This document shows, piece after piece, positions 41,864 through 46,722 of a stretch of DNA of 64,000 nt. Below the pieces are notes generated by a model, which did not search any database, was not told where the DNA came from, and saw only the letters and a program-made list of their open reading frames with translations. Positions within the stretch are counted from its first letter, which is position 1. The number at the start of each line of letters is the position of its first letter. Origin of the DNA: Bacillus sp. 103mf (GTDB lineage: Bacteria > Bacillota > Bacilli > Bacillales > Bacillaceae_G); assembly GCF_900116295.1 (NCBI RefSeq), contig NZ_FPAF01000002.1, forward strand, positions 412,592 through 476,591, given 5' to 3'. A program made the position numbers and the translations under genes.

Positions 41864-43084
41864 CTATATGATGCGGGATAATTTTTTTAAACGCTTCACC
41901 CCGTATTGATAGACAAACAAGACACTAAATAACATATTTTCAAGAAAAACAAGTCCTGTCATCATGATATCCTTCGTTGCAAACGCAAATAGTACAGTGA
42001 AAATGACACCACCTACACAAAGCAACGTACATAATAACGTCAGAAAATCTTTCATTTTCGCTTCTTCTCGGACAGGGTATAGCTCAAGCCATAATTTCAA
42101 ACGATGATGCTTCCATAAACTTAACAGCTGATAGCCGATTAAATATAAAAACACGACACCGACAAAAAGACGAACATAGAGAAACGGCGCAAAGTATAGA
42201 ATCAAGCCGCCAATTGCCAGTAAGCGGACATACAATCCAAAATAATTTCCTGAGCGTAAAAACGTGCGCAAGAATAAGAATAAATATGGCCGTTTGTCTG
42301 AGACAATCTGAAGAATAAAATCAAGCCATTTGCGGCGAGCTACCCGTTCTTTTAATGCCGGTACATCCACAAACATATTAGCAATGCGGTACAGCAGCAT
42401 CATTTTCTTTCCTTCTTCAGCAATTAAATATTCCCAGTTCAGCGGCTTTCCTTTTACTTTCTGGTGCAAGTATACAAGATAAATCACCATCGCCATGACG
42501 ATTGCTCCCATATACATAACAGAAGCGCGCTCGACGAGGAAATAAACGAAGAAAAAGTTAAGTACAAAACGAACAAACCAGTCCGTAAGATGAATACGAT
42601 TATCCGTCATATACGACTTTTCCCACGTCACAAATAAATTCCAGCCTTTACTTAACACGATCGCAAGTACAATTACGATGTATGTTTCCCCAGATTGTTT
42701 CGTCTGCTGGAAATAGAGCGGAGCAAGCGCCGCACTTACCATCGCCACAATATACAGCTGGATCATAAACGTAAATTGAAATGCTTTTACGAAATATGCT
42801 TTTAATTTTTCTTCTACTGAAAGTAAATACACAAGATCCGCTTCTTTTAATAACGTTTGAATCGATCCTGTCGTTAACACAAGTCCTATCAGAATCGCCA
42901 TCACAAATGAGATCGGAAATGCAGGCGTTAATGTTTGCAGCCATTGCTGATAATAATACGCACCCGCTCCGATAATAAACACAAAAATAAATTTCAAATG
43001 ATCATTAAACACATATTTACCGTATGTACGAATTTCCTTTAAAAAATGTCGAAACCGTTCTTTCCATAACTCTTTACTATTCAT
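41864..43084 (-). CDS. ecsB: ABC transporter permease EcsB
   Basis: About 406 residues with about ten membrane segments. ATG 43084 (MNSKELWKERF) is preferred: GGAAGATGCTG precedes it; an in-frame ATG also exists at 43090. It overlaps the ecsA end. EcsAB is the exporter needed for normal regulated intramembrane proteolysis (RasP), protein secretion, competence and sporulation in B. subtilis, and it has been linked to peptide export. It works with EcsA. Confidence 0.93.
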   Translation of the reverse strand: MNSKELWKERFRHFLKEIRTYGKYVFNDHLKFIFVFIIGAGAYYYQQWLQTLTPAFPISFVMAILIGLVLTTGSIQTLLKEADLVYLLSVEEKLKAYFVKAFQFTFMIQLYIVAMVSAALAPLYFQQTKQSGETYIVIVLAIVLSKGWNLFVTWEKSYMTDNRIHLTDWFVRFVLNFFFVYFLVERASVMYMGAIVMAMVIYLVYLHQKVKGKPLNWEYLIAEEGKKMMLLYRIANMFVDVPALKERVARRKWLDFILQIVSDKRPYLFLFLRTFLRSGNYFGLYVRLLAIGGLILYFAPFLYVRLFVGVVFLYLIGYQLLSLWKHHRLKLWLELYPVREEAKMKDFLTLLCTLLCVGGVIFTVLFAFATKDIMMTGLVFLENMLFSVLFVYQYGVKRLKKLSRII

Positions 43085-43823
43085 CAGCATCTTCTTCCTT
43101 CGTTAGTGCAATGTAAATATCATCAAGCGTTGCTCCCGGCATGTTAAACTCGCTTTGCAGCTCTTCAAGAGTGCCTTGTGCACGAATTTCACCTTGATGC
43201 AAAATAATGAAGGAATCGCAATAACGCTCTGCTGTCGCTAAAATATGTGTACTCATTAAAATGCCTGCACCGCTTTTCTTTACTTGGTCCATCATTTGCA
43301 GCAATGATTGAATCGCTAGCGGGTCTAGTCCAACAAATGGTTCATCCACAATATATAAAGAAGGCTCGACTAAAAACGCACTCATAATCATTACTTTTTG
43401 TTTCATCCCTTTTGAAAAATGGGATGGAAACCACTTCAAACGATTTTTCATACGAAACTCTTTTAACAGTCTTTCTACGCGTTTTTCGTACTGTTTCTCT
43501 TCAACGCCATACGCCATTGCCGTTAGCTTTAAATGCTCTTCTAACGTTAGCTCCTCATAAAGCACAGGTGTTTCTGGAATAAACGAGAAACTAGAGCGAT
43601 ATGCTGTCATATCATCTTTTAACGTCTTACCGTTAATCGTAATATGACCTTGTTTCGGCTCCATTAATCCGATAATATGTTTGATCGTTGTACTTTTTCC
43701 CGCACCGTTTAAACCGATTAAGCCGACCAGCTCTCCTTTCTTAACAGAGAATGAAATATTTTGTAATACAGGACGCTTCGTATATCCGCCTGTGACATTT
43801 TCCACGCGTAATAATTGTTCCAT
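43077..43823 (-). CDS. ecsA: ABC transporter ATPase EcsA
   Basis: 248 residues, very close to B. subtilis EcsA: Walker A GLNGAGKSTT, signature HFSKGMKQKV, Walker B LYIVDEPFVGLDP, and MSTHILATAERYCDSF. ATG 43823 is preceded by GAAAGTGGTGTCAT. It is the first gene of ecsABC and energises EcsB. The gene is divergent from hit across a 550-bp region that holds a repeat/hairpin array. Confidence 0.95.
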   Translation of the reverse strand: MEQLLRVENVTGGYTKRPVLQNISFSVKKGELVGLIGLNGAGKSTTIKHIIGLMEPKQGHITINGKTLKDDMTAYRSSFSFIPETPVLYEELTLEEHLKLTAMAYGVEEKQYEKRVERLLKEFRMKNRLKWFPSHFSKGMKQKVMIMSAFLVEPSLYIVDEPFVGLDPLAIQSLLQMMDQVKKSGAGILMSTHILATAERYCDSFIILHQGEIRAQGTLEELQSEFNMPGATLDDIYIALTKEEDADE

Positions 43824-44022
43824 ATGACACCACTTTCTTCATTTATGTATATGTATCATCTTACCAAAAAAATAAAGCTTCTACATAGTACAGACATACG
43901 ATAAAAAGAAAAAAATTCCTTTGCATATCTTCCGTCAAAGCGGACATCATAATTAGTGAGGAAGGAACACATTGAAAAAGCAACCATAAAAGTGATGAAT
44001 ACAGCCTAGCGAACTCATCATG

Positions 44023-44238
44023 AAATGGGGTGTCTATAATGGACAAAGGTAATTTACACGGAGTCATATAATTTGTTTCATTTTAGAAACGGGGTGTCTC
44101 GAGGAGAGTAGATACTGTTTTATAAAATAAACAATTCATTTCTAAAGGATTGCAACATCATTTCAATGTAAATGGGGTGTCGACGGCAGAATATATGTCG
44201 AGTTACCGCGCATTTCCTAAATAAATGAGGTGTCTCCC
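44023..44238 (+). repeat. Array of four GGGGTGTC boxes with preceding short stems
   Basis: GGGGTGTC occurs at 44027-44034, 44091-44098 and 44174-44181, and GAGGTGTC at 44227-44234, all in one direction. Boxes 2-4 directly follow a short inverted repeat: GTTTC-ATTTTA-GAAAC, CATTT-CAATGT-AAATG and CATTT-CCTAAAT-AAATG. Box 1 follows a weaker CAT-CATGAA-ATG. Downstream segments also resemble each other (CAAAGGTAATTTACACG against CAAAGGTAGATTAAACG), so this is a decayed tandem array. Spacing is 64, 83 and 53 bp. Confidence 0.65.
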
Positions 44239-44318
44239 AAAGGTAGATTAAACGAAAATGCTTTTTCAAACCTTCTTCAGAAGGCAGGAAGCTCAGCGGC
44301 TTCCTGCTTTTCGTGTTT
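44041..44318 (+). ncRNA. Candidate small RNA or leader between ecsA and hit
   Basis: Stem-box modules lie ahead of a strong intrinsic terminator (44284-44307, tail to 44322) on the plus strand, but no ORF of any size fills the region. A TATAAT at 44035-44040 could serve as -10; no good -35 is seen, so the 5' end is uncertain. It could be a trans-acting RNA or a leader ahead of hit. Confidence 0.35.
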
Positions 44319-44322
44319 TTTC
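44284..44322 (+). terminator. Strong terminator upstream of hit
   Basis: GCAGGAAGC (44284-44292), loop TCAGCG, GCTTCCTGC (44299-44307), then TTTTCGTGTTTTTTC. It lies 53 bp before the hit start codon, so it must end a transcript that begins in the ecsA-hit gap. Confidence 0.85.
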
Positions 44323-44374
44323 TATTGTGTAATTATGATAAAATACGGCTAAGACTACTGAAAGGATGAGGAAT

Positions 44375-44809
44375 ATGAATCATACAGCGGATAATTGTAT
44401 TTTTTGTAAAATTATTGAGGGGCAAATCCCTTGCGCAAAAGTATATGAAGATGAACATGTACTCGCTTTTCTTGATATTAGCCAAGTTACAAAAGGACAT
44501 ACACTCGTAATTCCAAAAGTACATAAACAAGATGTATTTGCATTAACACCAGAAATTGCCACGCACATTTTCTCTGTTGTTCCAAAAATTTCAAATGCGA
44601 TTAAAACTGAATATAATCCAGTTGGTTTCAACTTATTAAATAATAACGGAGAAAAAGCAGGACAAACTGTCTTTCACTTCCATTTTCATTTAATTCCACG
44701 CTACGGTGAAAAAGACGGTTTCGGTGCTGTATGGAAATCTCATCACAGTGATTACACAATGGAAGAATTACAAAACATTGCAAACACAATTGCAACTAGC
44801 GTAAAGTAA
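44375..44809 (+). CDS. hit: HIT-family nucleotide hydrolase
   Basis: 144 residues. ATG 44375 (MNHTADNCIFCK) is preferred since AAAGGATGAGG precedes it; the ATG at 44366 has its ribosome site too close. Features: CIFCKIIEGQIPCAKVYED at the start and the histidine triad HFHFHLIPR (about residues 98-106). HIT proteins cleave adenosine phosphoramidates or Ap4A-like nucleotides. Location next to ecsA is as in B. subtilis. Confidence 0.95.
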   Translation: MNHTADNCIFCKIIEGQIPCAKVYEDEHVLAFLDISQVTKGHTLVIPKVHKQDVFALTPEIATHIFSVVPKISNAIKTEYNPVGFNLLNNNGEKAGQTVFHFHFHLIPRYGEKDGFGAVWKSHHSDYTMEELQNIANTIATSVK

Positions 44810-45821: not shown

Positions 45822-46382
45822 ATGAAAAACGGAGAAAAAAGTTATTCAATAAAAGAAGCGATGATTTTTAGTCAACGTATCGCTCAATTATCAAAAGCAT
45901 TATGGAAGTGCGTAGAAAAAGATTGGCAGCAATGGATTAAACCATACGATTTAAATATTAATGAACATCACATTTTATGGATTGCGTATCATTTAAAAGG
46001 GGCTTCTATTTCAGAAATTGCAAAATTCGGTGTCATGCACGTATCCACGGCTTTTAACTTCTCTAAAAAACTAGAAGAACGCGGTCTGCTTATATTTTCA
46101 AAAAAAGAAGATGACAAACGAAACACGTATATTGAAATTACAGAGAAGGGAGAAGAATTGCTATTGCAATTAATGGAGGAATATGATCCTGAAAGTAATT
46201 CTGTCTTTAACGGTGCCTTGGCTCTTCGTAATTTCTACGGTAAATTCCCAGAAAACATCGAATTAATGGCTATTTTACGAAATGTTTATGGGCAAGACTT
46301 TATCGATATTTTCGAGAAATCATTGGATAATATCGAGGATAGTTTTATAGAGCACGACGAAAAACTTGTTAAAAAATGCTAA
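45822..46382 (+). CDS. hpr: Transition-state regulator Hpr (ScoC), MarR family
   Basis: 186 residues from ATG 45822 (GTGGGTGAATCG upstream). It matches B. subtilis Hpr/ScoC across the MarR winged helix: [56 protein letters not shown]. Hpr represses protease and sporulation genes during growth. The neighbourhood (yhaH, hit, ecs, yhaI, prsA) is the same as in B. subtilis. The C-terminus is shorter than in B. subtilis. Confidence 0.95.
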
Positions 46383-46386
46383 ATTA

Positions 46387-46722
46387 TTATCTTTTCGCTA
46401 TCATATGTAAAAACTCTTGCATCAATGGTTGAAACAAACCTTGACGTTCGAGCGCTTCCGCCGTCTCTTTTCCTTCGAGGCTTTCTGGAAGCGCTCTTTC
46501 AAATTTATTCAACAGCTCATCAAATAAAAGCAAACCTTCTTGCTTTTCCATTAAGTATTGCTCATTCATTTGTTCACAAAGAACTAACAAATGTTCTACA
46601 TCACATTTCATCACTTTCTTCTTTATAATTAAAGAATAAAATGGACACTTTTGTTCATCTATCATATTAAAAAGAAGCGATACATAATATTCTGCTTGTT
46701 CTAAGCGTTTCACAACGTCCAT
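46387..46722 (-). CDS. yhaI: DUF1878 protein YhaI
   Basis: 111 residues from ATG 46722 (GAGAGGGAAGAAA upstream); the open frame continues to 46788 without a ribosome site. Helical protein with MDVVKRLEQAEYYVSLLFNM and a C-terminal ERQGLFQPLMQEFLHMI. It is convergent with hpr, 4 bp apart. YhaI is conserved next to hpr in Bacillus; function unknown. Confidence 0.88.
   Translation of the reverse strand: MDVVKRLEQAEYYVSLLFNMIDEQKCPFYSLIIKKKVMKCDVEHLLVLCEQMNEQYLMEKQEGLLLFDELLNKFERALPESLEGKETAEALERQGLFQPLMQEFLHMIAKR

Follow-up and report, generated by a model that had tools for sequence, protein, structure and literature searches.

Repeated Shine-Dalgarno-like modules in a putative forespore small RNA gene between ecsA and hit in Bacillus sp. 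103mf and related bacilli

The ecsA-hit intergenic region

The window, meaning the whole stretch of 64,000 nucleotides from Bacillus sp. 103mf that was analysed, contains an intergenic region between an ecsA-like gene for an ABC transporter ATPase (43077–43823, minus strand) and a hit/hinT-like gene (44366–44809, plus strand). The genes were named from family matches below the curated cut-offs: the ecsA-like gene matched ABC ATPase families, none of the 25 matches shown being at the curated cut-off, the sole NCBIfam match of the gene next to it (41864–43090) was EcsB and the best NCBIfam match of the hit-like gene was HinT, placing the gap between an ABC ATPase with an EcsB-like permease on one side and a HinT-like gene on the other. 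A preliminary description, made from the sequence alone, had seen no open reading frame between the terminator and hit; in the gap as a whole none exceeds 68 aa among the frames of at least 40 aa that were listed. The covariance models of Rfam release 15 gave no match in the gap at E values up to 1, and a search of nine relatives at E up to 5 gave 14 matches, none of them inside the gap. Elsewhere in the window (46329–46392) a sub-threshold match to the SAM-II riboswitch was seen, probably by chance (22.9 bits, gathering threshold 44, E 0.45).

The same description had reported four boxes pointing in a single direction and a strong terminator after them, and both were confirmed. When both strands of the 64-kb window were scanned with the pattern GRGGTGTC, four matches were obtained, every one on the plus strand and in the ecsA-hit gap, where 0.90 would be expected by chance in the window and four anywhere in the window were reached by one out of 100 shuffles. 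The box GGGGTGTC starts at 44027, 44091 and 44174 and the box GAGGTGTC at 44227. Together with cross-locus alignment, the scan places these boxes within four modules on the plus strand, A1 (44023–44043), A2 (44087–44107, an AAAC variant without ATG), A3 (44170–44190) and A4 (44223–44243). A terminator search identified an intrinsic terminator on the plus strand at 44280–44320, formed by a stem (44280–44311) and a T tail, and a corresponding hairpin was found in the alignment with four relatives.

Upstream of the modules lies a putative promoter, GCATA-N17-CATCATA (43923–43951, plus strand), similar by sequence pattern to those recognised by sigma-G and sigma-F. The positions of this element and of the 5' strand of a closing stem, P1, suggest a start near 43957 and thereby a predicted RNA of ~360 nt, instead of the ~280 nt proposed earlier. 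The stretch 43957–44320 folds with -108.3 kcal/mol (z -5.8) and none of 100 shuffles was as stable.

The gap corresponds to the locus of a published small RNA. A table of Hfq-associated RNAs lists ncr1670 as 256 nt located between hinT and ecsA (PMC3574147), and ncr1670 and S357 are treated as one RNA that is reported to change in minimal medium when Hfq is lost (PMC4410918). In B. velezensis the 294-nt RNA Bvs196, seen by northern blot, is placed in the hinT-ecsA gap (PMC9147052); its homologue is named S357 in the introduction of that paper and S547 in the discussion. Since ncr1670 is listed at hinT-ecsA, ncr1670 equals S357 and Bvs196 is the S357 homologue in the hinT-ecsA gap, the region 43923–44320 is, as judged from sequence and location, an independent sRNA gene and a homologue of S357/ncr1670/Bvs196. 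The distance from assumed start to terminator in L066 (B. inaquosorum) is 293 nt, compared with the published 294.

The earlier remark that no element of this kind had been described does not hold for the RNA, whose locus is published, but stands for the repeated module, of which no description was found in the literature searched, a search with subscription papers mostly outside its coverage. In the Bvs196 paper the words 'motif', 'Shine' and 'anti-SD' do not occur and both uses of 'repeat' concern experiments (PMC9147052). As far as the literature was searched, the repeated module A, P1 as a covarying closing stem and a second module, B, described below, are undescribed.

Two modules in related genomes

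The hit protein was used as query in Bacillaceae and relatives, and the best 80 of 575 confirmed matches were taken as loci which, together with the window, gave 81 sources, in each of which up to 1000 bases before hit were scanned. The titles of the 80 loci name no B. cereus-group species, and many of the 81 sources are close kin, the counts not being independent. The boxes are conserved across these loci, with 188 strict boxes in 70 of the 81 sources. Alignment of these boxes gave a core of 21 nt, AAAUGRGGUGUYURYNRMAGR (module A), in which the search pattern itself dictated GRGGUG and the following pyrimidine. AAAU in front of them and the 3' half of the core, which the pattern left free, are conserved as well. 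Most sources contain two (28) or three (37) strict copies, one contains a single copy, one (the window) four, two contain five and one six, and 11 have no strict box (L006, L008, L012, L021, L049, L054, L061, L064, L070, L073 and L079). Module A is common to the window and the B. subtilis-group members L066, L067, L071, L072, L078 and L080. In the gaps of L034 and L068 some modules carry GGTGG instead of GGTGT (GGGGTGGTTGTTAAAGA) and fall outside the strict-pattern counts.

A search of 20 whole genomes with the exact module gave 40 matches in 17 genomes, compared with none for the reversed pattern and one for a control pattern extended by one N. Three of the 40 matches lay off the contig carrying the main cluster (two in G033 and one in G034), and among the 20 genomes those of L012, L073 and L079 had no exact match. 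In a sample of 199 genomes of the order, the exact module was present in 114, the reversed pattern giving five matches in four genomes. DNA of the gap itself was matched in five of 19 genomes of the family to which the genome of L001 belongs.

A peptide reading of module A (ATGAGGTGT, translated MRC) was ruled out, the AAAC and AAGA variants losing the ATG. The sequence AAUGAGG in module A resembles the U4 kink-turn; a kink-turn was dropped as a candidate when no conserved partner GA was seen by eye.

Between the A modules, 45 of the 81 sources contain a second element, module B (AGGGGAUGRU-N4-UUG or a close form), consisting of a Shine-Dalgarno-like stretch followed 9 nt on by mostly UUG, sometimes AUG or GUG. 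With a stricter pattern that left the codon open and required NAC after it, 68 of 75 sites carried TTG (62), ATG (4) or GTG (2) at the start-codon place, and the remaining seven had AAA (six, which look like variants of module A) or AAG (one). A looser pattern found TTG or ATG in 46 of 53 distinct sites and neither in the other seven. The frames opened by these codons comprise 3–17 codons and differ between clades. The TTG form of the B pattern was not found in the window, the B. subtilis group or the B. pumilus group.

Closing stem and local hairpins

In the window, P1 consists of TGAGGAAGG/CCTTCTTCA and TTGAAAAAGCA/TGCTTTTTCAA and is present in the minimum-energy fold. Its outer 5' strand, TGAGGAAGG (43957–43965, plus strand), marks the approximate RNA start and pairs with 44271–44279, with covariation across genera, while the inner 5' strand, TTGAAAAAGCA (43972–43982, plus strand), is a perfect 11-nt complement of 44259–44269; the 3' strand, TGCTTTTTCAA together with CCTTCTTCA (44259–44279, plus strand), is delimited by complementarity, covariation and the fold. 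A purine-rich 5' strand faces a pyrimidine-rich strand located directly before the terminator. The promoter-like pattern with a spacer of 16–18 was found ahead of the first module in 47 of the 70 sources with boxes (in 39 with a spacer of 17) and was not found in 23.

In 35 of the 70 sources with boxes both promoter and terminator could be recognised, and there the duplex energy of P1 averaged -25.6, compared with -16.4 when arms of unlike loci were exchanged and -14.0 when the 3' arms were shuffled; the observed median was reached by 4.4% of the swaps (n = 1086 swapped pairs) and 1.4% of the shuffles. Covariation was assessed on arms chosen as the best duplexes, leaving out L003. For the nine outer pairs, compared in 13 distinct arm pairs, 94% of cells can pair, the best of 1000 row shuffles reaching 88%. 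Double changes were found in six of the nine columns, the row shuffles averaging 3.7 and 41 of the 1000 reaching six, and because this count alone is weak the support for P1 lies in the pairing percentage and the energy. RNAalifold consensus structures made for each clade show P1 and the terminator recurring in several clades, with a varying inner structure. A TTG after the 5' purine strand is present in the window and four relatives, and since it is part of P1 its conservation says nothing on translation. By eye, P1-like arms and a terminator-like hairpin also seem present in the gap before hit in L012 (Fervidibacillus), which has no strict module A.

The preliminary description had emphasised short stems before boxes 2–4, with compensatory changes; these stems are mostly not conserved, the one before module 2 having some support. 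In an alignment with four relatives (L001, L102, L103 and L104), the first three retain the hairpin before module 2 with altered letters and L104 lacks it, none of the four has the one preceding module 3, and the one preceding module 4 has shrunk to 4 bp in three of them and is missing from the fourth. An exact 5-nt upstream partner was found for 16 of 74 non-redundant boxes, some excess over the 2.8 (maximum 7) in 200 shuffles; a control in which partners were swapped between boxes gave 16.2 and says little since the arm is nearly constant. Among the 11 boxes with a changed arm that were printed (L034 appearing twice), a matching change could be seen by eye only in module 2 of the window.

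When helices at a fixed distance beside module A were searched in 77 non-redundant boxes, the largest excess over expectation was 0.09 and the strongest pair signals came from neighbouring bases within the core. A possible hairpin inside the core, UYU-NNNNN-AGR, has its three pairs in register in 76, 83 and 94% of cases, and for each pair some shifted register reaches 82–85%. Nor did prediction support the exposed G-rich loops that had been suggested: the G-rich part (172 boxes, 66 sources) came out as unpaired as controls or slightly less so, and the preceding AAAU was more paired than controls. As far as sequence comparison can tell, it is P1, and not the small hairpins before the boxes, that is the best supported structure.

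Possible function and relation to known RNAs

The earlier suggestion of a small RNA with repeated boxes appears correct on present evidence, since in B. velezensis the corresponding locus gives an independent RNA of ~300 nt according to northern blot and forespore reporter data (PMC9147052). The same paper describes control of Bvs196 by sigma-F and mainly sigma-G, confinement to the forespore and, in a deletion strain, lower sporulation frequency and lower resistance to heat and UV, the resistance to formaldehyde not being lowered. By analogy, the copy in the window would likewise be expressed in the forespore.

To our knowledge, it is not settled how translation is shut down and how ribosomes are kept in the forming spore. 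The best explanation we can offer for the locus, held tentatively at a probability of about 0.4, is a trans-acting forespore RNA whose Shine-Dalgarno-like modules engage the 30S ribosome. A promoter of the sigma-G type would direct an RNA towards hit that ends at its own terminator. By pairing the 5' end with the bases just ahead of the terminator, P1 would close this RNA into a domain carrying four copies of module A in the window and one to six elsewhere by the strict pattern, mostly two or three. Module A would then offer a start-less Shine-Dalgarno-like sequence, and in many relatives module B would add a Shine-Dalgarno sequence whose start codon opens a very short frame. Produced at a late stage in the forespore, such an RNA would engage several 30S subunits at once, by which initiation may be damped or re-allotted as the spore goes dormant. 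The most elaborate version, a widespread RNA in which an array of start-less mimics, joined in many genera by mini-genes of module B (Shine-Dalgarno sequence, start codon, 3–17 codons and stop) and held in a closed stem, would bind several 30S subunits and slow or park translation towards dormancy, is doubtful as a whole. The modules, P1, the pattern of promoter and terminator and the copies at other loci are supported by the computations presented here; engagement of the ribosome and its effect on initiation are inferred.

The affinity to the 16S tail, whose complement both modules resemble, was calculated after the idea of the ribosome had arisen. The mean energy was -10.1 for module A (177 sites) and -12.5 for module B (59 sites), compared with -2.7 across 11827 further windows taken from these gaps. 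For the region of the hit ribosome binding site the mean was -11.8, a best-of-many-windows value, so that A and B resemble it loosely. Shuffles of the modules' own letters matched the energy in 5.5% of cases for A and 2.6% for B, and shuffled tails in 0.3% for both. The anti-Shine-Dalgarno affinity of A thus seems modestly above chance, a suggestive and not a strong result. Against a simple decoy speak the base before GRGG, where a G would complete the match and which is G in none of 188 boxes (T in 178, C in six and A in four), and the conserved 3' half of A, which pairing with the anti-Shine-Dalgarno sequence does not explain.

CsrB and RsmZ hold CsrA and RsmA, and offer a model in which copy number sets the amount of protein held; an RNA-binding protein of the forespore could be held by module A in the same manner. 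Such a sponge or scaffold is somewhat less likely than the ribosome reading, and would account for a 21-nt sequence core with no fixed structural partner, for the conservation of both core halves and for the varying copy number and the duplication of whole units, whereas it leaves the start codons of module B unexplained. The 2.77-fold enrichment of ncr1670 with Hfq points the same way, but is lower than most of the values shown beside it (PMC3574147).

Somewhat unlikely, in our judgement, is an ordinary antisense sRNA that pairs with particular mRNAs, be it spo0A, sspN-tlp or others reached through the GRGGUGU boxes. Published work names spo0A and sspN-tlp as direct targets of Bvs196: fragments of both were bound in vitro, mutation abolished the binding, and the mRNA levels differed in the deletion strain (PMC9147052). 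Transferred to L066, an approximate yardstick with cross-species coordinates and an assumed start, the pairing regions given there (74–131 and 109–124) fall between A1 (26–46) and A2 (145–165), so the conserved modules would be left unexplained by the published pairing. Moreover, the boxes would repeat the Shine-Dalgarno sequence of an mRNA and not its complement. In this approximate comparison the published pairing regions seem to lie off the most conserved parts of an RNA that, in one species, reportedly arises in the forespore and influences spore resistance.

The preliminary description had also raised a leader acting on hit. A cis-acting leader, or a processed piece of the hit transcript, is very improbable: the boxes run in the direction of hit and at a short distance from it, but the terminator stands between them and the gene. 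The unit also occurs apart from hit, at second loci in the genomes G220 (L091, 2250–2800) and G195 (L094, 1735–2200), where promoter, closing arms and terminator were judged by eye and no hit or ecsA frame is present in the stretch fetched; a frame near these copies looks like a cold-shock protein. L092 contains a truncated third copy, and the whole unit is duplicated in tandem in L034, L096 and L097, the promoter-like sites of L034 being located at -907 and -441 from hit. Because of these copies elsewhere and in tandem, the unit behaves like a separate gene and not like a leader of hit, and the northern blot of B. velezensis likewise speaks for an independent RNA (PMC9147052). A chance cluster of words like ribosome binding sites can practically be dismissed, for although the motif is short, was spotted by eye and reached four matches in one of 100 window shuffles, boxes occur in this gap in 70 of 81 sources and only three of 40 exact matches in the 20 whole genomes lie off the main-cluster contig.

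The RNA itself is already known from related bacilli and, as far as searched, its modular anatomy is the new part. Conservation of the repeated module in many Bacillaceae, together with the covarying closing stem and the companions bearing start codons, leads to a simple test, namely whether the ribosome or a protein is bound and whether the boxes matter.

When compared with known systems, a cis-regulatory leader or riboswitch would be expected to remain upstream of the gene it controls, which the unit at L091 and L094 does not. The RoxS sponge of B. subtilis, FosA, is also a regulatory RNA of Bacillus but its partner differs; an RNA sponge of RoxS in this species is described in PMC8216469.

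CsrB, RsmY and RsmZ likewise carry several copies of a short purine-rich box in one RNA ended by a terminator; they have GGA in hairpin loops, whereas module A has the core GRGGUGU and no demonstrated protein partner, its G-rich part is no more unpaired than controls and no fixed helix adjoins it. Set beside the Shine-Dalgarno and start region of mRNAs, module A resembles the Shine-Dalgarno sequence but has no start codon at that distance and falls one base short of the match in all 188 boxes, while module B has both a Shine-Dalgarno-like stretch and a start codon, with frames of just 3–17 codons that vary between clades.

The closest likeness is to S357/ncr1670/Bvs196, which share with the copy in the window the ecsA-hit/hinT gap, a promoter of sigma-F/G type, a terminator of their own and the lack of an assigned protein product. 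Relatives of B. subtilis, through whose sequences that group was compared, carry module A of the window. The window copy differs in its predicted length, ~360 nt compared with 294 nt for Bvs196, and in its four modules, compared with three in L066 and its kin.
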